From Bolinopsis microptera (Eukaryota; Ctenophora; Tentaculata; Lobata; Bolinopsidae): a DNA stretch of 64,000 nucleotides. The stretch spans positions 6,552,797 through 6,616,796 of the forward strand of contig NC_087080.1 of assembly GCF_026151205.1 (NCBI RefSeq), in the 5' to 3' direction. Positions 5,251 through 63,034 of this stretch are shown in pieces (position 1 is the first letter of the stretch; every line of letters starts with the position of its first letter). A model generated the notes under the pieces. It saw nothing but the letters and a program-made list of their open reading frames with translations. It did not search any database and had not been told where the DNA came from. The position numbers and the translations under genes were made by a program.

Positions 5251-5260
5251 ACTAAGGCTC

Positions 5261-6700: not shown

Positions 6701-6753
6701 TCTTTTGGGAGGATGGAGACAGATATAAAATCTTTTATGATATATATTTTAGG

Positions 6754-7520: not shown

Positions 7521-7527
7521 TGATTTA

Positions 7528-9013: not shown

Positions 9014-9287
9014 GCAGTTATGTTATTTCGGTTAAGTTATCTCAGTACATAAGTGAATCCAATCTATCCCCTGCAATCAAAGTATTTCCATGCCTATTAA
9101 GCTATTACAGGAAATTAGGAACATCAGTGGAAAGGTGCACTGTCAATCATTATTGCTCCATACCTCCAGTCCTCCTGTTATGTGCAATTCTCACTGCTAT
9201 GTATGCTCCTCATTTGTATCAATTATATTGATGCTACATTGTTATTGAATATGAAATAAATTTCAACCGTATTAATTTATTAACTTA

Positions 9288-9410
9288 TTGTAAATAGCAA
9301 GTTTGACAAAGGGATTACGTTTATTTTACCCGGAGTTCGTTTAAGTTTAGTATTGTAAATAGTTAATTTGACGAAGGGAATACGTCTATTTTACCCTGAG
9401 TTATGTTTTA
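9288..9410 (+). repeat. Duplicated segment in LINE 3' UTR
   Basis: Two adjacent copies of about 60 bp, both starting ATTGTAAATAG and containing TTTGAC(A/G)AAGGGA and TATTTTACCC. They lie in the 3' UTR of the inserted LINE. A tandem 3' UTR repeat is common in LINEs; any function is unknown. Confidence 0.7.
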
Positions 9411-9631
9411 GTTCAATCTTGACACAATTTTAAAATTATAATTTTATTATTTTATATATATGTATTGTCCATAACTAGGGTGGCCTGCTAACAGAACCAT
9501 GATCTGCCTTGATTCATCCTTCAGCACAGAGAAAAGCTCCTTTTTTTATACATTATGATTACAGAGGATCTCATATTTAGATATATATTGCTGTGCTGTA
9601 AAAATTGACTTTATTTATTTATTTATTTAAG

Positions 9632-34541: not shown

Positions 34542-34893
<352 letters not shown>

Positions 34894-41648: not shown

Positions 41649-41654
41649 CTTGTT
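41649..41654 (+). repeat. Target-site duplication, left copy
   Basis: CTTGTT immediately outside the left end of the palindromic element. The same six bases follow the right end at 56022-56027. Confidence 0.8.
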
Positions 41655-41713
41655 AGTAGTATGTAATATAGTACCGCTGTATCACCTAAAAGTGAGGTAC
41701 CAGTTTCGACAAG

Positions 41714-41729
41714 AGGGGGGGGGAGAGAG

Positions 41730-41791
<62 letters not shown>

Positions 41792-41840
41792 TGTGGGTGT
41801 ATGTGTGTGCGCATGTACTGTGTGTGTGTGTGTGTGTATA
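41714..41840 (+). repeat. Subterminal G-run, (GA)n, (GT)n microsatellite
   Basis: Begins about 60 bp from the element tip and is mirrored at 55843-55960 in the other arm. The two tracts differ slightly in length, which accounts for part of the arm-length difference. Confidence 0.9.
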
Positions 41841-42286
41841 TATACTGTTACTTTTATGGCATGCCTTATTTTTTAGCTTGTTTTATTATTTACTTGAGTA
41901 AACAATTTAAAGTGCAACCGCTACACACACCTATGACTTTTTATGTTTATTTTCTGTAGTTTACTAATATTTCTGTTTTTTTGTCATATTTTTCTCGCAA
42001 CTTTTTAGCTATAGCATTTTTTATCTTTTTTTATCGGGACAGTTACGACTAAAACACAAATATTATTTTAGAATAAATTAAAAAGAATATTGAACAAAGT
42101 AAAATCGATACAATATATCACCACAAAATAAGCATTATTCAAGTCTAGCATGTAATATAGTTAATCAAAATTTCGTTTACTCACAATTTTTCAGTAACTA
42201 TCGCAAATAAGTGTCAATTACTCTAAATAAAGTTTAATAGGTAAACATTGATCCTATTCTTAATAAAAACAACATTCATTTAATAC
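41841..42286. other. Element sequence downstream of PolB, no gene
   Basis: AT-rich sequence between the polymerase stop and the subterminal microsatellite, mirrored in the other arm. No ORF or motif recognised. Confidence 0.5.
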
Positions 42287-45200
42287 TTACAAATTTTTGT
42301 GTCCATAACTCAAAGTACTAATACCATCGTCTAAAATAAATTTTTTATCGTCAAAACCAGAAAGTCCTCGTTTTTGTACTACAACACTAAAAATCTTGTT
42401 TCCAAAAACGCGAATTGTTTGTGACTTTGTCATCGTTGTTGACTGAGTATCTAATACGTTTCTGTAATCTTCATGTCGGATCCGTCTTTGAGCAGCTTTA
42501 GCTATCCCTTTGGCTGTGACAGAATGTCCAATGAAACAAGATGAAGTGCATTCATGTTGTTCACTGCACCTGGTTACAAGCTTCTTTGTCATGACAGAGT
42601 ACATTTTAGGCTTCAGAGCAATAACCTCACTAATTATTTCAGTCGGTTTCTCGTCTGAAAACTTCCCAGGCACTTTTTTGTTGGTGGGGTCATTAAATCT
42701 CGACAGTGGGGTATTCTCAACGTAACCTGATAGATCCATAAGTTCACGTATACTGTATAGATCTTCGTACCCATTCTCTGCAAACACACCATAAATGAAG
42801 CTATCCGTGTCACTTAGGATGAGTTTTATTCTTTCACCATATTTCGGCTTTAGGACGTCATACCAGAACTCTCCCATGATATGTTTGGCATTTTCCAAAA
42901 CGATAAATCCGCAAGCAATGGGTTTGTTTAGTACTAAGTTCCGCTTCACAGACTGTACAACAGTAGTTTGCTCATCCAGCATGTGAAATCCAATAAACTG
43001 CGGCTTAGAAGTGAGGCGCTTTGCAGATCTTTCATCTTTTACAATGTCAACATTAGTACGATTTCTCAGACTCTCGATAAACTTACCATAAATTGAATTG
43101 TTAGCAAGTTTAAAGAAGTCTTTTTCAAAATCGGACTTGGCATTTCGTCTTTTTACCGAGTTAAATTTAATGTATGGAGTGACAAAGTCTGTTTGATCCG
43201 CTGCCATAACTCGGTGAATCTTTTCAAGAATCAACCCTTTGCTCAAACATAATTGGAGTGTCTTGAGGGAGCATACAAAATGCTTCTTATCTTTTAAATC
43301 GGGAACCAGTTTACGAGAAGACTTGAATTTTTCGTTGTGCATCTCCAAAAACTTTTTATTGTAGGGTGATAACTGATGCTCATAAATCATTTTGCTTTCC
43401 ACAGCAAGAGGGAAGTCATTGTGGTGATCGTGCAGATGTTTTGGATAATGTAGGTCAACTTCCAAAATATAACAGGTGTCACCTTCGGGATCTAAATCAC
43501 CAATATTCAACGATCTTATTTCATTCTTACTAAGCCAACGGAAATTCTTACAGGGAAGCTTGAATGACATAGACTTTCCATACAGATTATTCGCATCGAC
43601 ATAGTGAATGAAAGATGTTGGTTTACTGCAATCGTAGTCATCCAAATATGGGTTGTTAGCTTTGAATTGACGATGATTGACAGTGGTAACTCCGCCCCGG
43701 AGATTTTTCTCTATAAATGTATACATATCGATATCAGTTATGTACTCAATATTGACTTTTGTCATCTTTAGCATAGCATCCCATGAAAATCCTGGCAAAC
43801 TCATGTAATGACAGCAGTCAAGGCCGTAGTAATCCAGGCAAAGTTTCCGGAAGTTTTCAAACACATCACATAATAGAAGAGCATCAGATTTTACGTACAG
43901 CTCCATGTAATCCAACAATGTTTGACAGTTCATGGTTTTGAAGACATTTTGAGCCCTTGAGTAGTCAGAGTCAGAGATATCCTCATCTCTAAGTTTACTG
44001 TAAAATGCCTGCTTTGGAGGAAGATTCTTCTCGGAGAAAACTGAGTAAGATGATGCATAGTCATAAAAATACACACCCTTTTCTGACAAAAGCTCATAGT
44101 TTTCCGGGAACTCACGTTTCAGTCTCTTGAAGTTTTCAAGACCAGACTTTTTCATGTTAGCAGTTAACTTTTCCAACGAGGTGGAAAGAAAAGCAAAGCT
44201 GTCCAAGAAGGTAAATTTATCTGTAAACACTGCTTTAAACTTCTCTAGTGTCTCAGGAACCACATTTAACTTGTCGACCCTTTTTGTCAAATCCAGCAAG
44301 AAAAGGTTTAGATCGTATCCTTTTAAATTGTGTGCGAATGCTGGGACCCTTTTGCTTCTATTGAAGTAGTTGATATTACAAGTATTGCACGCAGCACCTC
44401 TAAAGTTATTCTTTTTTTTGAGATGGTCATGATCTCGAACTGGATAATCCGTTCTCGACTCCCAGTTCAGTCTTCTTTTGCAAATATGACAAATTTTAGC
44501 ACTTTTAAACTTTATTTCATCTTCTGCTGTCATGTCTATTGGGTACTGATTCTTTTCATAGCACTTCATCATATCATCATGGATCTTAGTTAGCTGTGAG
44601 ATAAACTCTTCAGTCACTTTATTAGGATCTTCATCGCTGAAAGTGACAACTTTGGAGTCATATTCTGAAAACTCTGACACAGTAACAATACAAAAGCTAC
44701 AGGGCACATGCTTTTGATACTTTTCCGTATAGCTAGAAGAGCCTTTTTTGCTGCAAGAACTGTAAGGTACTGTTAAACATTCAAAGTCAAAGTACACAGT
44801 AAATAGTTTCTTGTCTTGCTTGTGAAATGCCTTGAATTCAATGACTCCTGGGTCGGGCATCTTTACTAACTGATTGATCCCTTGCTTGCAGTTCTGGTAG
44901 TGTTTGTTATGGTTCTGCAGAGATACAAATCCATGCATACATTTTCGACAGTAAAACATCGTGTTATGATATCTAGAACGATGTCGCATGAATGCATTTA
45001 AGTTTTTTATCAGTAGGTAATGGGCACACCCATCATTTTCCAGATAAAGTAGATCAATTTGCGTTCCGACACCACTGCCATGTTTTAGAGGCAAGACTTC
45101 TTCACTGTCAACGCACCACTGGAAGACAGAAATTGACAACTTGTTTAACTTCTCAACTTTTGATATATCTTTTATTCTGACTGGAAATTGGACAGAGGCC

Positions 45201-46027
45201 ATATCTATCTTACTGGCGTAAGGTAGATATTTTGTATGTCTATCTGGGTTTTGACCATTAACTGGATACATCTTTGCCAAAATGCAATAAAGGAAGCATT
45301 TGGTGTCGGGGGATGCTATGTTTAGGATAGATCTCATTTTCTTTAGCTTCTTTGGAATAGACACTTTTCCGGATGCAAAGAGTGGTGAGTACTTTGCTAT
45401 CTCAACATGAGCACATAGTAGCTCATCGAATATCCAGCCACTTCCACACCGTTGATAAGTTTCAATTCCGTGTCTAATGTAGCTTTTTGCACGCGATAGA
45501 AGATCTGCAATATTATCTGCAAGTAGCAAGGGTTCACATATGGATCTAAATACCTTCTCTGAGTAGTCCCGATCGTCAAGTACATGCTTTTGGAATGAAA
45601 GAGTGATAACTAGTTGCACTTTTATAGGATTCTTTTGTACAAATGGAGTTATCTTATTTCCAACTGCAATGCACGAGTCTGACAGAATTTGATCGTAGTC
45701 TGAACTTTTCTCTACATCAAGCTTATATGACCTGAAATATCCTGCAATTGAGGTGCATTCTTCTTCGCTATTTAGATGTTCATGAACACCAGAGTGACGG
45801 TTGCACAAGGATTCGTCAATATCAGAGCTACACAAAAGCTCATGTCTCGCCAACTTGTCAGAGCGAAAAAACTTCTTGCAATTCCTGCAGGGCTTCTCAG
45901 GATTATGAGTCGGGATATGCCGTTTCAGGTTGTCAGATCTCATTCTCTTTGAGCAGATAGGACATTCCAAAATTGGGTTTTTGTTGCGATTTTTATCAGC
46001 TGTCCTTGCCCCAGGTCCCCTTTTCAT
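42287..46027 (-). CDS. Family-B DNA polymerase, left-arm copy
   Basis: 1246 aa from the first ATG at 46027 (an in-frame GTG further upstream is not credible in a eukaryote). Two C2H2-like fingers stand at residues 22-66. The 3'-5' exonuclease shows YFDFEC (about 412-417), HNLKGYD (566-572) and YVKSD (711-715). Between the first two lies a Cys/His block (CHICK, RDHDH, C547-C550) resembling recombination endonuclease VII. Polymerase motifs are DANNLYG (811-817), KLANNSIYG (973-981) and SDTDS (near 1072-1076). This is the DNA_pol_B_2 type used by protein-primed replicons. It would copy the element from its ends. The reading frame is uninterrupted and nearly identical to the right-arm copy. Confidence 0.88.
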   Translation of the reverse strand: MKRGPGARTADKNRNKNPILECPICSKRMRSDNLKRHIPTHNPEKPCRNCKKFFRSDKLARHELLCSSDIDESLCNRHSGVHEHLNSEEECTSIAGYFRSYKLDVEKSSDYDQILSDSCIAVGNKITPFVQKNPIKVQLVITLSFQKHVLDDRDYSEKVFRSICEPLLLADNIADLLSRAKSYIRHGIETYQRCGSGWIFDELLCAHVEIAKYSPLFASGKVSIPKKLKKMRSILNIASPDTKCFLYCILAKMYPVNGQNPDRHTKYLPYASKIDMASVQFPVRIKDISKVEKLNKLSISVFQWCVDSEEVLPLKHGSGVGTQIDLLYLENDGCAHYLLIKNLNAFMRHRSRYHNTMFYCRKCMHGFVSLQNHNKHYQNCKQGINQLVKMPDPGVIEFKAFHKQDKKLFTVYFDFECLTVPYSSCSKKGSSSYTEKYQKHVPCSFCIVTVSEFSEYDSKVVTFSDEDPNKVTEEFISQLTKIHDDMMKCYEKNQYPIDMTAEDEIKFKSAKICHICKRRLNWESRTDYPVRDHDHLKKKNNFRGAACNTCNINYFNRSKRVPAFAHNLKGYDLNLFLLDLTKRVDKLNVVPETLEKFKAVFTDKFTFLDSFAFLSTSLEKLTANMKKSGLENFKRLKREFPENYELLSEKGVYFYDYASSYSVFSEKNLPPKQAFYSKLRDEDISDSDYSRAQNVFKTMNCQTLLDYMELYVKSDALLLCDVFENFRKLCLDYYGLDCCHYMSLPGFSWDAMLKMTKVNIEYITDIDMYTFIEKNLRGGVTTVNHRQFKANNPYLDDYDCSKPTSFIHYVDANNLYGKSMSFKLPCKNFRWLSKNEIRSLNIGDLDPEGDTCYILEVDLHYPKHLHDHHNDFPLAVESKMIYEHQLSPYNKKFLEMHNEKFKSSRKLVPDLKDKKHFVCSLKTLQLCLSKGLILEKIHRVMAADQTDFVTPYIKFNSVKRRNAKSDFEKDFFKLANNSIYGKFIESLRNRTNVDIVKDERSAKRLTSKPQFIGFHMLDEQTTVVQSVKRNLVLNKPIACGFIVLENAKHIMGEFWYDVLKPKYGERIKLILSDTDSFIYGVFAENGYEDLYSIRELMDLSGYVENTPLSRFNDPTNKKVPGKFSDEKPTEIISEVIALKPKMYSVMTKKLVTRCSEQHECTSSCFIGHSVTAKGIAKAAQRRIRHEDYRNVLDTQSTTMTKSQTIRVFGNKIFSVVVQKRGLSGFDDKKFILDDGISTLSYGHKNL

Positions 46028-46062
46028 GATTTCTTTTCCGTAGCACAAAGATGTGTTGCAGA

Positions 46063-47315
46063 GCACAAAAAATCAAACGTAACTGAAACAGCAGTTTGAG
46101 AAATGAGCTAAAAGTCCACTGGTTCTCCTTTTATAGCCGTTTTCAGAGGAAACACACAATTTGGTGCTTTCCTGTAAAACTTGATGTGTGTCTTGAACTT
46201 GTAGCAGAGCACAAAAAATCAAACGTAACTGAAACAGCAGTTTGAGAAATGAGCTAAAAGTCCACCGGTTCTCCTTTTATAGCCGTTTTTCAGAGGTAAC
46301 ACAAAATTTGACGTTTGCCTGGAGAACTTGTTGTATGTCTTTAACTTGTAGAAGAGCACAAAAAATCAAACGTAACTGAAACAGCAGTTTGAGAAATGAG
46401 CTTTAAGTCCACTGGTTCTCCTTTTATAGCCGTTTTCAGAGGAAACACACAATTTGGTGCTTTCCTGTAAAACTTGATGTGTGTCTTGAACTTGTAGCAG
46501 AGCACAAAAAATCAAACGTAACTGAAACAGCAGTTTGAGAAATGAGCTAAAAGTCCCCAAGTTCTCCTTTTATAGCCGTTTTTTCAGAGGTAACACAAAA
46601 TTTGATGTTTGCCTGGAGAACTTGTTGTGTGTCTTTAACTTGTAGCAGAGCACAAAAAATCAAACGTAACTGAAACAGCAGTTTGAGAAATGAGCTTTAA
46701 GTCCACTGGTTCTCCTTTTATAGCCGTTTTCAGAGGAAACACAAAATTTGGTGCTTTCCTGTAAAACTTGATGTGTGTCTTGAACTTGTAGCAGAGCACA
46801 AAAAATCAAACGTAACTGAAACAGCAGTTTGAGAAATGAGCTAAAAGTCCACCGGTTCTCCTTTTATAGCCGTTTTTCAGAGGTAACACAAAATTTGACG
46901 TTTGCCTGGAGAACTTGTTGTATGTCTTTAACTTGTAGAAGAGCACAAAAAATCAAACGTAACTGAAACAGCAGTTTGAGAAATGAGCTTTAAGTCCACT
47001 GGTTCTCCTTTTATAGCCGTTTTCAGAGGAAACACACAATTTGGTGCTTTCCTGTAAAACTTGATGTGTGTCTTGAACTTGTAGCAGAGCACAAAAAATC
47101 AAACGTAACTGAAACAGCAGTTTGAGAAATGAGCTAATTAAGTCCACTGGTTCTCCTTTTATAGCCGTTTTTTCAGAGGTAACACAAAATTTGATGTTTG
47201 CCTGGAGAACTTGTTGTGTGTCTTTAACTTGTACCAAAGCACAAAAAATCAAACGTAACTGAAAAAGTAGTTTGAGAAATGAGCTATAAGTCCACTGGTT
47301 CTCCTTTTATAGGCA
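46063..47315 (-). promoter_or_regulatory. Ninefold tandem promoter-like array, left arm
   Basis: Mirror of the right-arm array (50355-51615), reading towards the polymerase on the minus strand. Unit starts recur every 146-150 bp and alternate between two subtypes, giving a higher-order repeat of about 293 bp. Each unit holds TATAAAAGG and, downstream, TCATTT. Confidence 0.75.
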
Positions 47316-48707
47316 AATGAACATGTTGTAGTGCAAGTAAAAACACGAGTTGGACACAACTGTAACGCTATAAACTATCATAAAGTAGACAATAGTGATG
47401 GATTATATCGATATTAAACGCATTGTAATATCAAAATTCGTTATTTTTCTTAACCTAATCGGCGTCTCTTTTAAATCAGTAGCTTAAGGTAGTCGGATAA
47501 CTAGATTTTTCAAGTACTTGAGTTATTTTCCTGCTACTTTTGATCATTCAAAAAGATAAAATTTAAGAAAAAGCTGCCCGGACGAGCTCAGTGTACATGC
47601 TTTGTTAGTTATTACAGCGTGGTTACTATGTTCATATATATTGGAACAGTGCATATAATCGAAAGTATGCATCCAGACATGTGTATGTGTTCGACCAGAG
47701 TTCGTTTCAAAGTCTACAGCTCTCACATAACTCATTTTAGTGGGCATTCCCACAATTATTTGAGATGGAAATGAGTGGAGAGAATACTCTCCTGATTCCG
47801 TATTTTCTCGGGAGCCAACCCCGAACAGTGATATAGCTGACTCATGGTACTGGAGATAGGCTAAGATCTCTCTAACCGAACCGTCAGCATCAGCCATATC
47901 ACAGAAATTTTTGTGTGTTTTTGAGTTTTGTAAGAGCTGCAGACCCTGGATTCGAACCTGGGACCCTCAGATATTTTTATTCATTTCAAGCTTTCAAGGT
48001 GGAAATTAGTGCTCTGAGCTAATTCCAGGCCATCCCAGTTAGAATTCATGTGTACTTATAGAGTGAAATAACGACACAATGAGCAATGTTTGTCTAATGA
48101 CTGGCCCTCAGCAAGGCTCGAACACTCTACCTCGAGGCTAATCAGTACAGAGATCACAGCTGCACGCCACGGGAGGGCCGTATGAACTAAATAACATTGC
48201 TTTATATACGCCATGTATAGTTTCCATCTTTGTGAGGCACTACGTATGTTGCATACAAATATATACAACAGTTATTGTCATAAGCTTTTAAGCACACCTG
48301 TTCATATCATATAAGGGAGTAAGTGCTGGGGGAGCATTGTGTACATCTAATTACAACATGTTTATATGTTGACTGATGGAAAAGCCCTTATTTATAACAC
48401 AGGAGTATCATGTGGATGCTATGTTGTAACACACATTTGTCGTCAAAAAAATTATTTCGAGATGGCAATCAATACTCAAAACCAAAGAGTTTTTTGTTGT
48501 TGTCGTGAGCGTGTTAATTTTGTATGTGCTAGTTAAATTTAACTAGAGTGTACAGTTTAGGACAACACCTGGTTGATATGGTAACGTAACGAGAAAGCAC
48601 TTTTCAGGACGGTTACTCAGTAGTACCAAGATTGTACCGTCATTGTAAAGTAAAGTTACGGCAACAGCTGTGTTTGTACTTGACAGATATTTACTTAATT
48701 TAAGAAC
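47316..48707. other. Inner part of left arm
   Basis: Contains two tRNA-like B boxes on the minus strand (47948-47958 and 48115-48123), a short open frame beginning MADADGSVRE also present in the other arm, and the inner end with CAGGACGGTTACT. No recognised gene. Confidence 0.5.
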
Positions 48708-48966
48708 CAAATAAAACTAAAGTGAATTGATAAAAATGTAACTTTCTTAAAAGAAATACGTGTCAACAAAATGTAGAAGCTGATAAATATATAGTGTACT
48801 CGATCACGTATTACACTGACTGTTTGATATGAAATGTAATTTATAGAGAGTACTTACAGGACGGTTACTTTACAGCCAAGAAAAATATGTCATTGTATAA
48901 TAGCCATAGACCTAGTACAGAATAGTCACGGTAGCAGCTGTGCAATGTATTTGACTCAAATCTCTT
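48708..48966. other. Unpaired centre of the palindrome
   Basis: 259 bp not shared as an inverted copy. Its right half (about 48855-48955) is a diverged direct repeat of the adjoining inner arm end (about 48605-48690): CAGGACGGTTACT, then CCAAG, GTCATTGTA and GCAGCTGTG in the same order. This looks like the loop left by a foldback event rather than a coding module. Confidence 0.75.
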
Positions 48967-50354
48967 GTTCTTAAATTAAGTAAATATCTGTCAAGTACAA
49001 ACACAGCTGTTGCCGTAACTTTACTTTACAATGACGGTACAATCTTGGTACTACTGAGTAACCGTCCTGAAAAGTGCTTTCTCGTTACGTTACCATATCA
49101 ACCAGGTGTTGTCCTAAACTGTACACTCTAGTTAAATTTAACTAGCACATACAAAATTAACACGCTCACGACAACAACAAAAAACTCTTTGGTTTTGAGT
49201 ATTGATTGCCATCTCGAAATAATTTTTTTGACGACAAATGTGTGTTACAACATAGCATCCACATGATACTCCTGTGTTATAAATAAGGGCTTTTCCATCA
49301 GTCAACATATAAACATGTTGTAATTAGATGTACACAATGCTCCCCCAGCACTTACTCCCTTATATGATATGAACAGGTGTGCTTAAAAGCTTATGACAAT
49401 AACTGTTGTATATATTTGTATGCAACATACGTAGTGCCTCACAAAGATGGAAACTATACATGGCGTATATAAAGCAATGTTATTTAGTTCATACGGCCCT
49501 CCCGTGGCGTGCAGCTGTGATCTCTGTACTGATTAGCCTCGAGGTAGAGTGTTCGAGCCTTGCTGAGGGCCAGTCATTAGACAAACATTGCTCATTGTGT
49601 CGTTATTTCACTCTATAAGTACACATGAATTCTAACTGGGATGGCCTGGAATTAGCTCAGAGCACTAATTTCCACCTTGAAAGCTTGAAATGAATAAAAA
49701 TATCTGAGGGTCCCAGGTTCGAATCCAGGGTCTGCAGCTCTTACAAAACTCAAAAACACACAAAAATTTCTGTGATATGGCTGATGCTGACGGTTCGGTT
49801 AGAGAGATCTTAGCCTATCTCCAGTACCATGAGTCAGCTATATCACTGTTCGGGGTTGGCTCCCGAGAAAATACGGAATCAGGAGAGTATTCTCTCCACT
49901 CATTTCCATCTCAAATAATTGTGGGAATGCCCACTAAAATGAGTTATGTGAGAGCTGTAGACTTTGAAACGAACTCTGGTCGAACACATACACATGTCTG
50001 GATACTTTCGATTATATGCACTGTTCCAATATATATGAACATAGTAACCACGCTGTAATAACTAACAAAGCATGTACACTGAGCTCGTCCGGGCAGCTTT
50101 TTCTTAAATTTTATCTTTTTGAATGATCAAAAGTAGCAGGAAAATAACTCAAGTACTTGAAAAATCTAGTTATCCGACTACCTTAAGCTACTGATTTAAA
50201 AGAGACGCCGATTAGGTTAAGAAAAATAACGAATTTTGATATTACAATGCGTTTAATATCGATATAATCCATCACTATTGTCTACTTTATGATAGTTTAT
50301 AGCGTTACAGTTGTGCCCAACTCGTGTTTTTACTTGCACTACAACATGTTCATT
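48967..50354. other. Inner part of right arm
   Basis: Mirror of 47316-48707. B-box-like GTTCGAGCC at 49551 and GGTTCGAATCC at 49716, the second preceded by an A-box-like TAGCTCAGAGCA at about 49650, recall degenerate tRNA genes or SINE heads. A short MADADGSVRE open frame starts at 49777. Confidence 0.5.
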
Positions 50355-51615
50355 TGCCTATAAAAGGAGAACCAGTGGACTTATAGCTCATTTCTCAAAC
50401 TACTTTTTCAGTTACGTTTGATTTTTTGTGCTTTGGTACAAGTTAAAGACACACAACAAGTTCTCCAGGCAAACATCAAATTTTGTGTTACCTCTGAAAA
50501 AACGGCTATAAAAGGAGAACCAGTGGACTTAATTAGCTCATTTCTCAAACTGCTGTTTCAGTTACGTTTGATTGTTTGTGCTCTGCTACAAGTTCAAGAC
50601 ACACATCAAGTTTTACAGGAAAGCACCAAATTGTGTGTTTCCTCTGAAAACGGCTATAAAAGGAGAACCAGTGGACTTAAAGCTCATTTCTCAAACTGCT
50701 GTTTCAGTTACGTTTGATTTTTTGTGCTCTGCTACAAGTTAAAGACATACAACAAGTTCTCCAGGCAAACGTCAAATTTTGTGTTACCTCTGAAAAACGG
50801 CTATAAAAGGAGAACCGGTGGACTTTTAGCTCATTTCTCAAACTGCTGTTTCAGTTACGTTTGATTTTTTGTGCTCTGCTACAAGTTCAAGACACACATC
50901 AAGTTTTACAGGAAAGCACCAAATTTTGTGTTTCCTCTGAAAACGGCTATAAAAGGAGAACCAGTGGACTTAAAGCTCATTTCTCAAACTGCTGTTTCAG
51001 TTACGTTTGATTTTTTGTGCTCTGCTACAAGTTAAAGACACACAACAAGTTCTCCAGGCAAACATCAAATTTTGTGTTACCTCTGAAAAAACGGCTATAA
51101 AAGGAGAACTTGGGGACTTTTAGCTCATTTCTCAAACTGCTGTTTCAGTTACGTTTGATTTTTTGTGCTCTGCTACAAGTTCAAGACACACATCAAGTTT
51201 TACAGGAAAGCACCAAATTGTGTGTTTCCTCTGAAAACGGCTATAAAAGGAGAACCAGTGGACTTAAAGCTCATTTCTCAAACTGCTGTTTCAGTTACGT
51301 TTGATTTTTTGTGCTCTTCTACAAGTTAAAGACATACAACAAGTTCTCCAGGCAAACGTCAAATTTTGTGTTACCTCTGAAAAACGGCTATAAAAGGAGA
51401 ACCGGTGGACTTTTAGCTCATTTCTCAAACTGCTGTTTCAGTTACGTTTGATTTTTTGTGCTCTGCTACAAGTTCAAGACACACATCAAGTTTTACAGGA
51501 AAGCACCAAATTGTGTGTTTCCTCTGAAAACGGCTATAAAAGGAGAACCAGTGGACTTTTAGCTCATTTCTCAAACTGCTGTTTCAGTTACGTTTGATTT
51601 TTTGTGCTCTGCAAC
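50355..51615 (+). promoter_or_regulatory. Ninefold tandem promoter-like array, right arm
   Basis: TATAAAAGG occurs at 50359, 50507, 50655, 50802, 50948, 51096, 51242, 51389 and 51535, spaced 146-148 bp. In almost every unit GCTCATTT follows so that the A of TCATTT lies 31 bp after the first T of the TATA box; TCATTT fits the TCA(G/T)T(C/T) initiator. The last unit would start RNA near 51566, about 77 nt before the polymerase ATG. The array reads as nine core promoters in series; activity is inferred. Confidence 0.75.
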
Positions 51616-51642
51616 ACATCTTTGTGCTACGGAAAAGAAATC

Positions 51643-54600
51643 ATGAAAAGGGGACCTGGGGCAAGGACAGCTGATAAAAATCGCAACAAAAACCCAATTT
51701 TGGAATGTCCTATCTGCTCAAAGAGAATGAGATCTGACAACCTGAAACGGCATATCCCGACTCATAATCCTGAGAAGCCCTGCAGGAATTGCAAGAAGTT
51801 TTTTCGCTCTGACAAGTTGGCGAGACATGAGCTTTTGTGTAGCTCTGATATTGACGAATCCTTGTGCAACCGTCACTCTGGTGTTCATGAACATCTAAAT
51901 AGCGAAGAAGAATGCACCTCAATTGCAGGATATTTCAGGTCATATAAGCTTGATGTAGAGAAAAGTTCAGACTACGATCAAATTCTGTCAGACTCGTGCA
52001 TTGCAGTTGGAAATAAGATAACTCCATTTGTACAAAAGAATCCTATAAAAGTGCAACTAGTTATCACTCTTTCATTCCAAAAGCATGTACTTGACGATCG
52101 GGACTACTCAGAGAAGGTATTTAGATCCATATGTGAACCCTTGCTACTTGCAGATAATATTGCAGATCTTCTATCGCGTGCAAAAAGCTACATTAGACAC
52201 GGAATTGAAACTTATCAACGGTGTGGAAGTGGCTGGATATTCGATGAGCTACTATGTGCTCATGTTGAGATAGCAAAGTACTCACCACTCTTTGCATCCG
52301 GAAAAGTGTCTATTCCAAAGAAGCTAAAGAAAATGAGATCTATCCTAAACATAGCATCCCCCGACACCAAATGCTTCCTTTATTGCATTTTGGCAAAGAT
52401 GTATCCAGTTAATGGTCAAAACCCAGATAGACATACAAAATATCTACCTTACGCCAGTAAGATATATATGGCCTCTGTCCAATTTCCAGTCAGAATAAAA
52501 GATATATCAAAAGTTGAGAAGTTAAACAAGTTGTCAATTTCTGTCTTCCAGTGGTGCGTTGACAGTGAAGAAGTCTTGCCTCTAAAACATGGCAGTGGTG
52601 TCGGAACGCAAATTGATCTACTTTATCTGGAAAATGATGGGTGTGCCCATTACCTACTGATAAAAAACTTAAATGCATTCATGCGACATCGTTCTAGATA
52701 TCATAACACGATGTTTTACTGTCGAAAATGTATGCATGGATTTGTATCTCTGCAGAACCATAACAAACACTACCAGAACTGCAAGCAAGGGATCAATCAG
52801 TTAGTAAAGATGCCCGACCCAGGAGTCATTGAATTCAAGGCATTTCACAAGCAAGACAAGAAACTATTTACTGTGTACTTTGACTTTGAATGTTTAACAG
52901 TACCTTACAGTTCTTGCAGCAAAAAAGGCTCTTCTAGCTATACGGAAAAGTATCAAAAGCATGTGCCCTGTAGCTTTTGTATTGTTACTGTGTCAGAGTT
53001 TTCAGAATATGACTCCAAAGTTGTCACTTTCAGCGATGAAGATCCTAATAAAGTGACTGAAGAGTTTATCTCACAGCTAACTAAGATCCATGATGATATG
53101 ATGAAGTGCTATGAAAAGAATCAGTACCCAATAGACATGACAGCAGAAGATGAAATAAAGTTTAAAAGTGCTAAAATTTGTCATATTTGCAAAAGAAGAC
53201 TGAACTGGGAGTCGAGAACGGATTATCCAGTTCGAGATCATGACCATCTCAAAAAAAAGAATAACTTTAGAGGTGCTGCGTGCAATACTTGTAATATCAA
53301 CTACTTCAATAGAAGCAAAAGGGTCCCAGCATTCGCACACAATTTAAAAGGATACGATCTAAACCTTTTCTTGCTGGATTTGACAAAAAGGGTCGACAAG
53401 TTAAATGTGGTTCCTGAGACACTAGAGAAGTTTAAAGCAGTGTTTACAGATAAATTTACCTTCTTGGACAGCTTTGCTTTTCTTTCCACCTCGTTGGAAA
53501 AGTTAACTGCTAACATGAAAAAGTCTGGTCTTGAAAACTTCAAGAGACTGAAACGTGAGTTCCCGGAAAACTATGAGCTTTTGTCAGAAAAGGGTGTGTA
53601 TTTTTATGACTATGCATCATCTTACTCAGTTTTCTCCGAGAAGAATCTTCCTCCAAAGCAGGCATTTTACAGTAAACTTAGAGATGAGGATATCTCTGAC
53701 TCTGACTACTCAAGGGCTCAAAATGTCTTCAAAACCATGAACTGTCAAACATTGTTGGATTACATGGAGCTGTACGTAAAATCTGATGCTCTTCTATTAT
53801 GTGATGTGTTTGAAAACTTCCGGAAACTTTGCCTGGATTACTACGGCCTTGACTGCTGTCATTACATGAGTTTGCCAGGATTTTCATGGGATGCTATGCT
53901 AAAGATGACAAAAGTCAATATTGAGTACATAACTGATATCGATATGTATACATTTATAGAGAAAAATCTCCGGGGCGGAGTTACCACTGTCAATCATCGT
54001 CAATTCAAAGCTAACAACCCATATTTGGATGACTACGATTGCAGTAAACCAACATCTTTCATTCACTATGTCGATGCGAATAATCTGTATGGAAAGTCTA
54101 TGTCATTCAAGCTTCCCTGTAAGAATTTCCGTTGGCTTAGTAAGAATGAAATAAGATCGTTGAATATTGGTGATTTAGATCCCGAAGGTGACACCTGTTA
54201 TATTTTGGAAGTTGACCTACATTATCCAAAACATCTGCACGATCACCACAATGACTTCCCTCTTGCTGTGGAAAGCAAAATGATTTATGAGCATCAGTTA
54301 TCACCCTACAATAAAAAGTTTTTGGAGATGCACAACGAAAAATTCAAGTCTTCTCGTAAACTGGTTCCCGATTTAAAAGATAAGAAGCATTTTGTATGCT
54401 CCCTCAAGACACTCCAATTATGTTTGAGCAAAGGGTTGATTCTTGAAAAGATTCACCGAGTTATGGCAGCGGATCAAACAGACTTTGTCACTCCATACAT
54501 TAAATTTAACTCGGTAAAAAGACGAAATGCCAAGTCCGATTTTGAAAAAGACTTCTTTAAACTTGCTAACAATTCAATTTATGGTAAGTTTATCGAGAGT

Positions 54601-55383
54601 CTGAGAAATCGTACTAATGTTGACATTGTAAAAGATGAAAGATCTGCAAAGCGCCTCACTTCTAAGCCGCAGTTTATTGGATTTCACATGCTGGATGAGC
54701 AAACTACTGTTGTACAGTCTGTGAAGCGGAACTTAGTACTAAACAAACCCATTGCTTGCGGATTTATCGTTTTGGAAAATGCCAAACATATCATGGGAGA
54801 GTTCTGGTATGACGTCCTAAAGCCGAAATATGGTGAAAGAATAAAACTCATCCTAAGTGACACGGATAGCTTCATTTATGGTGTGTTTGCAGAGAATGGG
54901 TACGAAGATCTATACAGTATACGTGAACTTATGGATCTATCAGGTTACGTTGAGAATACCCCACTGTCGAGATTTAATGACCCCACCAACAAAAAAGTGC
55001 CTGGGAAGTTTTCAGACGAGAAACCGACTGAAATAATTAGTGAGGTTATTGCTCTGAAGCCTAAAATGTACTCTGTCATGACAAAGAAGCTTGTAACCAG
55101 GTGCAGTGAACAACATGAATGCACTTCATCTTGTTTCATTGGACATTCTGTCACAGCCAAAGGGATAGCTAAAGCTGCTCAAAGACGGATCCGACATGAA
55201 GATTACAGAAACGTATTAGATACTCAGTCAACAACGATGACAAAGTCACAAACAATTCGCGTTTTTGGAAACAAGATTTTTAGTGTTGTAGTACAAAAAC
55301 GAGGACTTTCTGGTTTTGACGATAAAAAATTTATTTTAGACGATGGTATTAGTACTTTGAGTTATGGACACAAAAATTTGTAA
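51643..55383 (+). CDS. Family-B DNA polymerase, right-arm copy
   Basis: 1246 aa from ATG 51643, almost identical to the left-arm copy. Same order of parts: paired N-terminal zinc fingers, a further Cys/His cluster (C360, C363), exonuclease motif YFDFEC, endonuclease VII-like Cys/His block, HNLKGYD, then palm motifs DANNLYG, KLANNSIYG and SDTDS. All catalytic Asp positions expected for family B are present. It lies just downstream of the promoter-like array. Length is within the range of Polinton-type polymerases; the frame is uninterrupted. Confidence 0.88.
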   Translation: MKRGPGARTADKNRNKNPILECPICSKRMRSDNLKRHIPTHNPEKPCRNCKKFFRSDKLARHELLCSSDIDESLCNRHSGVHEHLNSEEECTSIAGYFRSYKLDVEKSSDYDQILSDSCIAVGNKITPFVQKNPIKVQLVITLSFQKHVLDDRDYSEKVFRSICEPLLLADNIADLLSRAKSYIRHGIETYQRCGSGWIFDELLCAHVEIAKYSPLFASGKVSIPKKLKKMRSILNIASPDTKCFLYCILAKMYPVNGQNPDRHTKYLPYASKIYMASVQFPVRIKDISKVEKLNKLSISVFQWCVDSEEVLPLKHGSGVGTQIDLLYLENDGCAHYLLIKNLNAFMRHRSRYHNTMFYCRKCMHGFVSLQNHNKHYQNCKQGINQLVKMPDPGVIEFKAFHKQDKKLFTVYFDFECLTVPYSSCSKKGSSSYTEKYQKHVPCSFCIVTVSEFSEYDSKVVTFSDEDPNKVTEEFISQLTKIHDDMMKCYEKNQYPIDMTAEDEIKFKSAKICHICKRRLNWESRTDYPVRDHDHLKKKNNFRGAACNTCNINYFNRSKRVPAFAHNLKGYDLNLFLLDLTKRVDKLNVVPETLEKFKAVFTDKFTFLDSFAFLSTSLEKLTANMKKSGLENFKRLKREFPENYELLSEKGVYFYDYASSYSVFSEKNLPPKQAFYSKLRDEDISDSDYSRAQNVFKTMNCQTLLDYMELYVKSDALLLCDVFENFRKLCLDYYGLDCCHYMSLPGFSWDAMLKMTKVNIEYITDIDMYTFIEKNLRGGVTTVNHRQFKANNPYLDDYDCSKPTSFIHYVDANNLYGKSMSFKLPCKNFRWLSKNEIRSLNIGDLDPEGDTCYILEVDLHYPKHLHDHHNDFPLAVESKMIYEHQLSPYNKKFLEMHNEKFKSSRKLVPDLKDKKHFVCSLKTLQLCLSKGLILEKIHRVMAADQTDFVTPYIKFNSVKRRNAKSDFEKDFFKLANNSIYGKFIESLRNRTNVDIVKDERSAKRLTSKPQFIGFHMLDEQTTVVQSVKRNLVLNKPIACGFIVLENAKHIMGEFWYDVLKPKYGERIKLILSDTDSFIYGVFAENGYEDLYSIRELMDLSGYVENTPLSRFNDPTNKKVPGKFSDEKPTEIISEVIALKPKMYSVMTKKLVTRCSEQHECTSSCFIGHSVTAKGIAKAAQRRIRHEDYRNVLDTQSTTMTKSQTIRVFGNKIFSVVVQKRGLSGFDDKKFILDDGISTLSYGHKNL

Positions 55384-55842
55384 GTATTAAATGAATGTTG
55401 TTTTTATTAAGAATAGGATCAATGTTTACCTATTAAACTTTATTTAGAGTAATTGACACTTATTTGCGATAGTTACTGAAAAATTGTGAGTAAACGAAAT
55501 TTTGATTAACTATATTGCATGCTAGACTTGAATAATGCTTATTTTGTGGTGATATATTGTATCGATTTTACTTTGTTCAATATTCTTTTTAATTTATTCT
55601 AAAATAATATTTGTGTTTTAGTCGTAACTGTCCCGATAAAAAAAGATAAAAAATGCTATAGCTAAAAAGTTGCGAGAAAAATATGACAAAAAAACAGAAA
55701 TATTAGTAAACTACAGAAAATAAACATAAAAAGTCATAGGTGTGTGTAGCGGTTGCACTTTAAATTGTTTACTCAAGTAAATAATAAAACAAGCTAAAAA
55801 ATAAGGCATGCCATAAAAGTAACAGTATATATACACACACAC
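55384..55842. other. Element sequence downstream of PolB, no gene
   Basis: Mirror of 41841-42286. AT-rich, no ORF. Confidence 0.5.
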
Positions 55843-55878
55843 ACACACACAGTACATGCGCACACACATACACCCACA

Positions 55879-55944
<66 letters not shown>

Positions 55945-55960
55945 CTCTCTCCCCCCCCCC
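55843..55960 (-). repeat. Subterminal (GT)n, (GA)n, G-run, right arm
   Basis: Mirror of 41714-41840, about 60 bp inside the right tip. Confidence 0.9.
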
Positions 55961-56021
55961 CTCTTGTCGAAACTGGTACCTCACTTTTAGGTGATACAGC
56001 GGTACTATATTACATACTACT

Positions 56022-56027
56022 CTTGTT
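56022..56027 (+). repeat. Target-site duplication, right copy
   Basis: CTTGTT directly after the right tip. The flanks beyond it share no further similarity with the left flank. Confidence 0.8.
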
Positions 56028-57782: not shown

Positions 57783-58074
57783 ACTAGAAAGCCCGTGGTA
57801 ACAGGGACGAAGCCAGTAGTATTCTTTGAAAGAAAATTTTAATCGCATCAAAAAATATCCATCTCAACCGAAGATACAGCCGATTTAAATATAAAACACT
57901 TTAAACACAACGTAATTACCACAAAACCGATCAAAATGACGTTAAAACAATCTTTGCACGTGCATGTGTGCATTAAAACACCGTTGCTATGGAACCTTTT
58001 GGTTGTTACCTAAATTCCTATTTTTCATCTAATTTGCACGTGGGCGGTCGTACAGTGTACGTACAAACAAAAAG
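57783..58074 (+). repeat. Interspersed repeat of about 300 bp, copy 1
   Basis: Starts ACTAGAAAGCCCGTGG and ends near GTGGGCGGTCGTACAGTGTA. Nearly identical to copy 3 (62713-63034), but lacks that copy's last about 20 bp. No coding capacity. It may be a MITE or SINE-like unit; ends show only a weak TACTA inverted match. Confidence 0.75.
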
Positions 58075-58449: not shown

Positions 58450-59592
58450 CTATAGTTCAGTTTGTGTATCAGGTACAATACTATTGAAATCCTTCAACTC
58501 TCCTGCAACATTCCTAAACCCATCTTCAAACCTCCCTTCCATCCTCACAGCAGACTGCACATCAGGAATGTCAAGTAGACACAGTTTCTTTACTGACAAG
58601 TCAGTGTAAGCCCTGTAGTACACACACCCTCTACCCAGATCCTTGACCAAGGTCCACCAGTTAAATGCAATCAGGTCCAGTGGTGCTGTCATCATTACTC
58701 CGTAGGGGATATCAGCTGCACTCATGTGGTGGAAAATCTGGACTATAGCCTCGTTAGTAGTGGCAGGTTTTGGAGCCAGGGCGAGAAGAGTAGCAGCCTT
58801 AACAAAGCGGGAAGGTGAAGTGTAATCCCCAGGTAGTCCCAACATTCCAGATCCGGTCCATTGTGGGCCATACGAGTAGTCCTCTCCCTGGGAAGAGTAT
58901 TTGAACCCTTCTCTTCCTTTGTCATTCCTCTGAAAGTGAGGATAGTTCCTGAGATTGGTCATATGCCAGGAGTAAGGTGGAGAGTTTGTCAGTACCCCGA
59001 CTGTATTGTCATACCACTTCACTCCCTCTCCTTTAACATGTTCCAGCACTAATCCTGCCCCGGTCTTGTCGATGACGTTGTAGTGGATTGGCACCATGAT
59101 CCCCAAGTCATATCCCGCCCAAACAGCTGGAAATTTGCCACTCTCCAAGTCATTCTTAACTTGTTCAACTGTTTCGTACATAGCCAGGATGTAAGCAGCA
59201 ACCATGGTCTGTGGAATAGCGTTATCACATGCCAAACCTGTGATCTCTGCAGGGTCGATGTACTCGGCATTGTCTTTGAAGTAGAGAACACTTGCAGACA
59301 ACCCTGCTGCATTAATACCATCAGCTGTGTTAATCCATTTAGCACGAAAGATTCCTTTATACGTGATCTGTTTGTAACGATTGCTGAAAGTGAAAGGGTC
59401 TCCAGGACAGTTGGGTAGGGCGGGGGCAAGATGTTTAGTGCCAGCAGGCTCGGTTATCAAGAAGAAATCCAGAGGAATACCAAATTCTAAACTACGCCCC
59501 ACAATCACTCCTCTGTCTTTAGCTTTTACATTGATCTCCTGACAAGACTTTACCAGGGTCAACAAAATGAACAGAACAGTAAAACCCAACAT
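58450..59592 (-). CDS. Secreted choloylglycine hydrolase-family amidase
   Basis: 380 aa, single exon, ATG at 59592. A 16-residue hydrophobic signal peptide ends just before Cys17, so signal cleavage would expose the N-terminal nucleophile of an Ntn hydrolase. Other expected residues follow at family spacing: Arg33 in GRSLEF (16 after the Cys), Glu36 in place of the usual Asp, Asn94 in DGINAAGLSA, Asn203 in LTNSPPYSWH and Arg262 in SPSRFVKAA. This is the pattern of penicillin V acylases and bile-salt hydrolases, which cleave linear amide C-N bonds; the animal relatives acid ceramidase and NAAA are more distant. The substrate here is unknown; an N-acyl amide is plausible. The gene is intronless and lies antisense inside a host intron, which, with its bacterial-like motifs, raises the possibility of horizontal transfer. 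Confidence 0.85.
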   Translation of the reverse strand: MLGFTVLFILLTLVKSCQEINVKAKDRGVIVGRSLEFGIPLDFFLITEPAGTKHLAPALPNCPGDPFTFSNRYKQITYKGIFRAKWINTADGINAAGLSASVLYFKDNAEYIDPAEITGLACDNAIPQTMVAAYILAMYETVEQVKNDLESGKFPAVWAGYDLGIMVPIHYNVIDKTGAGLVLEHVKGEGVKWYDNTVGVLTNSPPYSWHMTNLRNYPHFQRNDKGREGFKYSSQGEDYSYGPQWTGSGMLGLPGDYTSPSRFVKAATLLALAPKPATTNEAIVQIFHHMSAADIPYGVMMTAPLDLIAFNWWTLVKDLGRGCVYYRAYTDLSVKKLCLLDIPDVQSAVRMEGRFEDGFRNVAGELKDFNSIVPDTQTEL

Positions 59593-60399: not shown

Positions 60400-62420
60400 A
60401 GAATATAACACGTCTCTGATAGCAATATTGTAAACTAAACACGGGTTAATAGGCTGAGATCATGTCAAATAAAATAAATAAACTAAACACTAAGCTCCAG
60501 CGGATTTAAAAAGGATGTGGTTACTATCGAGGGTGTTCATACCCCCATAACGCTCAAGGGTTTTCAATTGGGTCTGGTAGAACCCCTCTCTAGCTTCCAT
60601 GGCCTTTTCCCTATCTGCTTGACTTATTTCAGGTTTAAATTCAAGAGCGTCCACTATAATAACAGAAAGGTGCGTACTAAGTGAAGAGTTATATAAGGCT
60701 ACTGAACTAAAATCTAAATCATGATCAATATCTAAAAAGTGATTTACTAACTTACAACTTCTGATACCTTTCTTAATGTGGCTCTTATGATTAGAAAATC
60801 TCTTAGGGAGATTAGAAGTAGTATATCCTACATACGACTGTTTACAAGTTCTACACTCCATTAAATAAATAAGGTTATTACTCTGACAAGTTATATATTT
60901 AGTAATAGGGAAAACTTGTTTAGAATGGTGACTACTAAATTTGGAACAAGGGGACAGGAAACTTTGCTTACAAACATAGCATTTTCCACAGGCATGGCAC
61001 CCTGCGTTGTCAGCCTCCCGAACAGCCGGCAATATTGCAGCGTCTGGTTCAAGAAATTGACTAGCAGTGGCTCCTCCATCTCTATCACTGCTTACAGTTC
61101 CACTAGCACGATACTTATTGTGTACAAGCATGCCACCGATAGTTTGATTCTTTCGGTGACTTACAAATACACTGTCAGCACGTACTAGCTTCTTCAAGGC
61201 TGGATCGAGATTAAGAAGGTGCTTATACTTGTGAATAATGCTCCCCATGTTGGGAAGTGCTGGATTCTGATCCATAACCATGGGTATTAGACAAGTAGTC
61301 ATCTCATCCTTATTTTTAGGGGCATACAAGTTTTTCCTATTGGTTATATCACTAAATTTGTTGAAAGCATCGTCTACAATACTAGAATGGTAACCACGGG
61401 CTACAAGGTAACCAGTATATACCTCCCTTTGCTCTAAGAAATTAGTGTCTTCACTATTGTTCTGCCTCACTCGCCTCGCCACACCATAGGGTATGTTTTT
61501 GAGAACATGGCTCCTATGACATGAGGTGGGGATGAGATAGCAGTGGGTGTCACTGGGCTTAGAGTAAAGTTTGGTATGAATAACATCGCCAACAGCATAG
61601 ACATAGGTGTCTAAAAACTCAACACCATCCTTAGAGTAGTCGTAAGTAAACACAAGGTCCGGATGGATACTATTGAGCCATTTCATAAATTGTAGAAGCT
61701 CCTCAACAGTACCAGGCCAGGCCATGTATATATCGTCACGCAACCTACCCCAGAATGCTGGTCTGTGTGGCGGGCCATGTTCTAAATCTCTTTCATTAAC
61801 TAAAATATCGATCTTATCCATTGCACAATCTGCATACTCACATGAGTTCTTAGGACCCATCGCCGCTCCACGCTCCTGACGGTATGTTATACCGTTGAAC
61901 GAAGCTATGTTGTAATCAAGAGTGATTTCTAGAGCACTAATAATGCATTCTGTACTGAACAATTGATCATAACTACTTCTTTCATTCAGGTGCTTGGTGC
62001 ATTGTTGGATCCCCATATCCCTGGGGATATTGGTGAACATGTTGGATATATCTATGGCAACATGTATCACCTCCTTACCCAACAATATGGTGGACTCATT
62101 CAAGCTATCAATCTTCCTCAAAAAATGAGGGGTGTCAATAATTCTATAATCTAAAATAGCCTTCTTCAATTCGTATGCAGTCAGGGCAGATAGGTTCTCA
62201 ATGTACGAACCACATCCAGTAGTAATCATCCTCCCAGGGTACAAAGGTGGCTTGTGGGCCTTGGGATTCAGGTATATATATAACATCCCACCAAGACTCT
62301 TTGCAATCTAAAACAAGTTTCCATAAACTCAATGTCACAATTTAAACGGGCATTAAAATGAATGTTAGATAATCGCGTCAAACTACAATATGCCGATCCG
62401 CCGAGGACTCTACTTTATAA
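60400..62420 (-). mobile_element. Penelope-like element, EN-positive
   Basis: Encodes an RT of the Penelope type linked to a GIY-YIG endonuclease. The 5' side is short: only about 130 bp separate the ORF start from an unrelated repeat, and the usual N-terminal coding part is absent, so the copy is 5'-truncated. Terminal repeats typical of the group were not recognised with certainty, and the ends given are approximate. Confidence 0.75.
60490..62286 (-). CDS. Penelope-like RT with GIY-YIG endonuclease
   Basis: 598 aa from ATG 62286; an in-frame stop lies about eight codons upstream. RT motifs: YLNPKAHKPP, GCGSYIENLS, VAIDISNMFTNIP (catalytic Asp near 79), ERGAAMGP (138-145) and RLRDDIYM (Asp184-185, with LRDD where many relatives have YxDD). 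A thumb-like SKPSDTHCYLIP segment follows. A Cys cluster (C430, C433, C436, C439) precedes the GIY-YIG nuclease: LIYLMEC (472-478), YVGYT (485-489), KRFSNHK. This arrangement matches endonuclease-bearing Penelope-like elements, whose nuclease nicks DNA to prime reverse transcription. The family's N-terminal region of roughly 200 residues is missing, so mobility is doubtful. Confidence 0.85.
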   Translation of the reverse strand: MLYIYLNPKAHKPPLYPGRMITTGCGSYIENLSALTAYELKKAILDYRIIDTPHFLRKIDSLNESTILLGKEVIHVAIDISNMFTNIPRDMGIQQCTKHLNERSSYDQLFSTECIISALEITLDYNIASFNGITYRQERGAAMGPKNSCEYADCAMDKIDILVNERDLEHGPPHRPAFWGRLRDDIYMAWPGTVEELLQFMKWLNSIHPDLVFTYDYSKDGVEFLDTYVYAVGDVIHTKLYSKPSDTHCYLIPTSCHRSHVLKNIPYGVARRVRQNNSEDTNFLEQREVYTGYLVARGYHSSIVDDAFNKFSDITNRKNLYAPKNKDEMTTCLIPMVMDQNPALPNMGSIIHKYKHLLNLDPALKKLVRADSVFVSHRKNQTIGGMLVHNKYRASGTVSSDRDGGATASQFLEPDAAILPAVREADNAGCHACGKCYVCKQSFLSPCSKFSSHHSKQVFPITKYITCQSNNLIYLMECRTCKQSYVGYTTSNLPKRFSNHKSHIKKGIRSCKLVNHFLDIDHDLDFSSVALYNSSLSTHLSVIIVDALEFKPEISQADREKAMEAREGFYQTQLKTLERYGGMNTLDSNHILFKSAGA

Positions 62421-62712: not shown

Positions 62713-63034
62713 ACTAGAAAGCCCGTGGTAACAGGGACGAAGCTAGTAGTATTCTTTGAAAGAAAGTTTTAATCGCATCAAAAAAGATCCATCCCGACCG
62801 AAGATACAGCCGATTTAAATATAAAACACTTTAAACACAACGTAATTACCACAAAACCGATCAAAATGACGTTAAAACAATCTTTGCACGTGCATGACGC
62901 ATGTGTGCATTAAAACACCGTTGCTATGGAACCTTTTGGTTGTTACCTAAATTCCTATTTTTCCTTTTAATTTGCACGTGGGCGGTCGTACAGTGTACAG
63001 TGTACGTACAAAAACAATTCTCTGAATTATAGTA
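62713..63034 (+). repeat. Interspersed repeat of about 300 bp, copy 3
   Basis: Close match to copy 1 along almost its whole length, with a short duplication of ACAGTGTAC near the end. Ends AATTCTCTGAATTATAGTA. Confidence 0.75.

Follow-up and report, generated by a model that had tools for sequence, protein, structure and literature searches.

We analysed a 64,000-nucleotide stretch of the genome of the ctenophore Bolinopsis microptera, hereafter the window (C9:6552797-6616796, in a genome of 264.65 Mb and 232 contigs), which contains a 14,367-bp palindromic element (41655-56021) carrying two copies of a DNA polymerase gene, PolB (Table 1). The initial annotation had described two inverted arms of about 7.05 kb around a 259-bp centre, and both the self-matches and a global alignment of the arms agreed with this description. 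Inverted self-matches at 100% identity joined 41715-47671 to 49999-55955 and 47671-48707 to 48967-50003, with an extra tip-side inverted match between 41655-41809 and 55867-56021. The global alignment gave 6 substitutions and 2 indel blocks (6 and 4 bp) over 7,053 bp, and BLAST counted 5 mismatches and 3 gap openings on the same pair; the element thus has two distinguishable arms, not one arm mirrored. The 259-bp centre has no inverted second copy inside the element. Both ends read inward as AGTAGTATG, so that the terminal inverted repeats (TIRs) begin with AG. The perfect CTTGTT duplication announced at both borders was recovered when the letters were read and compared; with matching tips and a target site duplication (TSD) on both sides, the palindrome is real and was inserted as a unit, as proposed.

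The two PolB genes do stand head to head: both frames are intact, their 5' ends face the centre and they are read outward to the tips. PolB is the only convincing coding frame of the window copy and its sole frame of at least 150 aa, in keeping with the earlier statement that nothing but a polymerase is encoded. The Polinton-like character that had been assigned to the tips, the TSD length and the polymerase was borne out by the AG-starting tips, the 6-bp TSD, both of which follow Polinton norms, and the PolB motifs. A motif scan of the window PolB detected an EndoVII-like motif, three exonuclease motifs and polymerase motifs A-C. The window PolB itself did not match PF03175 at E 0.01, Pfam detecting the EndoVII part alone and below its cut-off; relatives from the same genome, 38% identical to it, passed both PF03175 and PF02945. 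Searches of Pfam, PHROGs and NCBIfam with the window PolB returned a weak EndoVII signal and chance matches, nothing more, and a sequence search of the PDB returned zinc fingers at the N-terminus and a weak Ceg4 match. In IMG/VR, neither the window PolB nor L048 as a single query gave matches, and a PolB alignment retrieved two loci (L082 and L083). A piece of the window PolB was 37-39% identical to these two and to L048 and L049 of the same genome, and 34% identical to the partial PolB of a Polinton resident on contig C1. The L082 protein was 38% identical in an alignment covering residues 3-814 of the PolB piece, and its contig also encodes an A32-type ATPase and an rve integrase, with a weak capsid match. 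In a tree with five other PolBs (L048, L049, the partial C1 Polinton and the two IMG/VR contigs), the AGTAGTAT group formed a separate clade with a bootstrap of 100. Judged by its motifs and relatives, the window PolB is of Polinton type. The dN/dS ratio was 0.19 between the window and C9:662254 genes (21 synonymous, 16 nonsynonymous differences) and 0.29 between the window and C13 genes (8 synonymous, 9 nonsynonymous differences); by these estimates, PolB of the palindromic lineage is under purifying selection.

The genome search with the 60-bp tip, suggested in the initial annotation, gave 25 matches, 22 of which formed 11 inverted pairs, so that other copies with the same tips exist. A looser tip pattern yielded further pairs among the matches listed, with at least 119 matches against 66 for a reversed control; many of these pattern matches belonged to an unrelated AGTAGTGTACCAGTT repeat and were excluded from the family. 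Perfect 6-bp TSDs bordered 23 of 25 AGTAGT-tipped pairs, compared with 9 of 20,000 random pairs of 6-mers, and this excess together with the numbers of tip pairs excludes chance. The two pairs lacking a TSD (C1:24430799 and C5:13157518) were kept in the count; the test covered neither the pair at C1:15212632-15222047 nor single tips, of which L024 and L025 hold examples.

When the interiors of 15 tip pairs were examined, nine proved to be palindromes: the window element, C7:6690411, C9:662254, C11:6783760, C12:15097586, C5:18059736 (a foreign stretch breaks up one of its arms), C4:10998705, C21:62595 and C2:4128511 (called from its two outer 0.8 kb and its middle 1.2 kb). Another, C13:13624197, has one full arm, to which 2.2 kb left over from the second arm are joined. 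The remaining five elements (L019, L020, L021, L022 and L026) are not palindromic; each has a single PolB, which is broken in L022, and their inverted termini measure 164-532 bp. The inner module of the window arms (Table 1) is present in each of the two arms at six sites, every one with a different 6-bp TSD, and a deletion derivative lies at a seventh. The foldback reading of the initial annotation is thus not right by itself, since a lone accident in one Polinton would not account for these copies. The whole module was found in no single-arm element among the best 40 of 85 candidates, and the single-PolB sisters have only some 0.22 kb in common with it (roughly 81% identity). The window element is not a one-off; it is a member of a family with several copies.

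Table 1. Features of the palindromic element, with positions counted in the window.
Feature	Position	Strand	Remarks
Left TSD, CTTGTT	41649..41654	.	Letters read directly; same as right TSD
Left arm, 7053 bp	41655..48707	.	
Left tip, AGTAGTATG..., family-wide	41655..41714	+	
(GT)n microsatellite	41733..41837	.	Right-arm counterpart 55833-55941; 6-bp arm-arm indel at 41732
Left PolB, 1246 aa; C2H2-like N-terminus, EndoVII-like motif, exonuclease and PolB motifs	42287..46027	-	
Exonuclease (DFE, HNLKGYD, YVKSDA) to polymerase (DANNLYG, KLANNSIYGK, DTDS) motifs, residues 414-1076	42800..44788	-	Motif scan; alignment to relatives that pass PF03175
EndoVII-like C..C / DHDH / C..C motif, PolB residues 513-550	44378..44491	-	Pfam PF02945 E 5.1e-4, under its cut-off; motif scan
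146-bp tandem repeat, 8.6 copies, just upstream of left PolB	46054..47312	.	
Left-arm inner module	47313..48707	.	Among the matches listed, (nearly) whole only in palindromic copies; pieces elsewhere
Asymmetric centre, 259 bp	48708..48966	.	
Right arm, 7055 bp, reverse complement of left arm	48967..56021	.	
Same 146-bp tandem array, right arm	50358..51616	.	
Right PolB, 1246 aa	51643..55383	+	
Right tip, inverted copy of left tip	55962..56021	-	
Right TSD, CTTGTT	56022..56027	.	Letters read directly; compared with left TSD

The other option of the initial annotation, a distinct PolB-only group, was not right by itself either. The non-palindromic relatives carry PolB and a second gene, ORF2, which encodes a C2H2 finger and an acidic tail, and in other palindromes ORF2 takes the place of PolB in both arms. 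PolB and ORF2 are convergent in L026 and L027; L019-L021 combine PolB with an acidic frame, that of L019 matching the C-terminal half of the C21 ORF2 (E 1e-10). ORF2 is present in both arms of the C11, C12 and C5 palindromes (the left frame of C12 being split in two), in which no window-type PolB was found, and the C21 palindrome has its own ORF2 in both arms. The C11 and C12 genes are 97% identical to ORF2 of L026 where compared, and the C11 gene starts within the tandem-repeat region (1.26 kb in each window arm), near the position where PolB starts in the window. The placement of ORF2 and PolB across copies thus indicates that the arms are modular and that swaps show in both arms together. 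The arm of L016 (C12:15097586) is chimeric, and mirrored, with an outer window-like tip of about 45 bp, an L026-type part with ORF2 and the window-type inner module. Beside the L026 element lies an apparently SRCR-like frame. The inner module of each window arm also holds a 140-aa open frame (47544-47966, minus strand, in the left arm), nearly identical in C12, whose coding status is doubtful, Pfam giving no match and no sign of coding being seen.

We then compared the two arms within copies, aligning separately the PolB segment (3,721 bp, three complete copies), the inner segment (six copies) and the tip-side segment (four copies). In the PolB segment, copies differed from one another at up to 38 sites and the arms of one copy at 1-3; 26 substitutions occurred in both arms of a single copy and in no other copy, against 5 arm-arm differences (23 versus 3 in C9:662254, 3 versus 1 in the window and 0 versus 1 in C7). 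The corresponding numbers were 12 versus 3 in the inner segment and 9 versus 4 in the tip-side segment, and in the seven copies compared at length the longest arm match was 99.5-99.8% identical. Two old arms evolving independently would predict few or no such shared private substitutions. Since the arms mostly agree where copies differ, the second arm would have been re-made from the first, or the two homogenised.

At the middle of 6 of the 13 palindromes read there (C7, C11, C12, C21, C2:4128511 and L044) we found a C/G-rich quadruplex-type motif. The arms of C7, C12, C21, C2:4128511 and L044 meet at the C/G-rich tract, in two different sequence contexts, and C11 has kept it on one side only. 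Over 304 kb scanned, and homopolymers aside, there were ten other quadruplex-type motifs and one further copy of the tract, in L055. Asymmetric single-copy spacers of similar length lie at differing arm positions: 259 bp in the window (48708-48966), 306 bp at C9:668121-668426, 286 bp at C5:18066225-18066510 and 283 bp in C11 (L015, 4651-4933), with shorter ones in C4:10998705 (132 bp) and L051 (172 bp). The search with the 259-bp centre that the initial annotation had proposed located this unique sequence in both arms of C7:6690411, C11:6783760 and C12:15097586, which fits a derivation of the window centre from a longer palindrome that would have lost its inner middle and one copy of the centre stretch. 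Outside the element, the window also has a long (CCCT)n array, a quadruplex-type motif, at 34760-34882.

The window element, with PolB as its sole frame of 150 aa or more, yielded no gene for an integrase, ATPase, protease or capsid protein, and by this gene content it is not a Polinton; the element group is nonetheless Polinton-derived, as judged from sequence comparison. The capsid, ATPase and protease check covered the window element and part of the other members. Pfam detected no transposase domain in the window PolB or in the scanned frames of relatives, and no rve match lay inside any of the 25 tip pairs (judged by eye on the best 150 of 394 candidates). A genome-wide PF04665 search gave 0 matches, a weak test, since this profile also misses the ATPase-like frame of the Polinton resident on C1. 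That Polinton (C1:345000-356800; L084, L085) comprises PolB pieces, a 385-aa C2H2 frame, a P-loop ATPase-like frame and an open 407-aa rve+chromo integrase frame, and it is plausible that this integrase acts in trans on window-type tips. We do not claim homology between ORF2 and its C2H2 frame (29 residues, E 0.002). A 21-kb AGTAGTGT-tipped pair at C4:8557351-8578534 (its middle being L061), with TSD TGTAAC, has a very divergent 756-aa frame; by exonuclease-type motifs this frame looks PolB-like, Pfam showing only a zinc finger.

We consider it on balance probable that these elements belong to a transposon group derived from Polintons and lacking a capsid, whose members multiply and insert in palindromic form, that is, as an inverted dimer of one element half. 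The window element has the form expected of a snapback product, being an almost perfect palindrome built from one end of the element around a short unpaired centre, and the symmetric structural change seen in C11, C12 and C5, with ORF2 in both arms, supports this reading. For priming, snap-back and integration we infer the following scheme. PolB would copy the element from the AGTAGTAT tip, probably by protein priming; near the centre the new strand would switch to the complementary strand, or the displaced strand would snap back, and the second arm would thereby be re-made from the first. The finished palindrome, with two identical tips, would be joined to staggered host cuts by the integrase of a resident Polinton acting in trans, leaving the 6-bp TSD. 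The asymmetric 259-bp centre could be a spacer produced when the strand switched before reaching the middle, or result from later deletion of an unstable middle.

The main rival to snap-back is gene conversion between the arms after insertion, which could also be the source of their agreement. The palindrome would then have formed once and moved as an ordinary long-TIR transposon, with arm-to-arm conversion as in chromosomal palindromes. Such conversion accounts for the shared private substitutions without snap-back, and the tips and TSDs require only a transposition step. It would, however, have to maintain the near-identity of arms in all seven copies compared at length, including the GT microsatellite of the window with its one 6-bp indel, and to make whole-gene swaps symmetric, although efficient conversion could still do so. 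We regard this history as possible, if rather unlikely.

Several further observations weigh against the snap-back reading. The arms of C7 in the inner-segment tree and those of C13 in the tip-side tree were not sisters, and there may have been some exchange between copies. Seven of the 13 middles (window, C9:662254, C5:18059736, C4:10998705, L051, L057 and L060) have no C/G-rich motif, which is thus not required now. Of ten suspected-pair midpoints, C2:4128511 included, four were clearly palindromic, two weakly so (65-67%) and four not at all. Reading two 3.5-kb flanks of the C1 Polinton did not reveal its ends, so that the in-trans integrase is not tied to the AGTAGT tips. The window and C7 PolB genes differ by 4 nonsynonymous and 0 synonymous changes, too few to weigh. 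Finally, an AlphaFold model of PolB residues 430-1246 (pLDDT 39) was useless and was discarded, so that the polymerase assignment rests on sequence.

It could also be that the palindromes are dead ends, each produced independently by a foldback error of a single-PolB element and integrated by chance. The existence of sister families with one PolB and short TIRs agrees with this, as do the spacers at different arm positions in the window, C9, C5 and C11. We find it improbable all the same: the inner module is shared by six palindromes, and none of the matches listed is a single-arm element with the whole of it; the C/G-rich centre is common to palindromes with different arms, and PolB in palindromes is under purifying selection. 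If a second transposon, bounded by its own TIRs, sat nested in the middle, this would explain why the stretch inward from window position 48523 recurs as inverted pairs with different outer arms. Such nesting is very improbable, because at C4:10998705, C21:62595 and C2:4128511, the places of this kind where outer ends were found, the stretch lies inside larger AGTAGT-tipped palindromes with 6-bp TSDs, and because at the nine ends printed (one of which, L035, has no partner there) the outward sequence is equal on both sides of the pair, with no break at the edge of the stretch. Perfect palindromes are a known long-read artefact, but a hairpin-adapter read or a mirrored contig is scarcely credible here, given the 8 places at which the arms differ in the global alignment, the unique flanks with matching 6-bp TSDs, and the recurrence of the structure in 9 of 15 examined insertions at unrelated sites.

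The snap-back reading can be extended to a divided (multipartite) capsidless system, in which separate PolB-only and ORF2-only palindromes with common tips and inner module would be kept together by selection on each gene, would replicate by snap-back into inverted dimers, at first from a quadruplex-type centre, and would use the integrase of a resident Polinton. We put this forward tentatively and think it doubtful as a whole.

Elsewhere in the window, several retrotransposon-type frames (RVT_1, Exo_endo_phos) lie inside 10 kb (2434-12021), and a 184-bp direct repeat, 97% identical between its copies (57783-57966 and 62713-62896), flanks a CBAH-domain frame (58450-59592) and a GIY-YIG frame (60490-62286).

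In a chromosome, a long perfect palindrome should be unstable, yet this lineage seems to use the palindrome as its standard form, and each copy has two good polymerase genes. Snap-back replication is familiar mainly from defective virus genomes; if the arms are re-copied in each round, the insertions would be a chromosomal record of it. Because the arms are concerted and the gene swaps symmetric, ordinary long reads can test the idea. Polintons link viruses, plasmids and transposons, and the present group, if rightly interpreted, would mean that they are able to lose capsid and integrase and survive as minimal replicons, which may be divided among several elements.

Palindromic inverted-dimer derivatives also arise by replication in protein-primed linear plasmids and adenoviruses, for instance the F-forms of pGKL1; unlike the window group, these are cytoplasmic or viral and are not known to form integrated families. 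Our literature search, judged by title, retrieved no paper on such plasmid or adenovirus derivatives and, judged mostly from titles and abstract openings with few subscription papers, no description of palindromic Polintons. The window element resembles Polintons/Mavericks and adintoviruses in its EndoVII+PolB architecture, AG-starting inverted termini and 6-bp TSD, and the POLB of the Sf Maverick is likewise described with EndoVII and POLB2 domains (PMC5803895). It differs from Polintons, among whose genes an RVE-type integrase, packaging ATPase, protease and major and minor capsid proteins are named (PMC11071308), in that its whole arm is the terminal inverted repeat, its PolB is duplicated and this PolB falls in a separate clade. 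It shares long, internally repetitive inverted repeats with the Foldback/Galileo long-TIR transposons, unlike which it encodes a PolB, Galileo being grouped with the P element by its transposase (PMC3573991) and not being known to encode a PolB. A published parallel to the window palindromes is found in the snapback half-genomes of adeno-associated virus (AAV), whose 5'- and 3'-SBG each represent, as snapback molecules, a single half of a linear replicon, with a gene of its own in each half and a postulated division of labour (PMC8235507). AAV is a parvovirus packaged in virions, whereas the window group consists of chromosomal insertions with TSDs and PolB; a divided system, if true, would be a chromosomal counterpart of divided genomes and of the AAV half-genomes.

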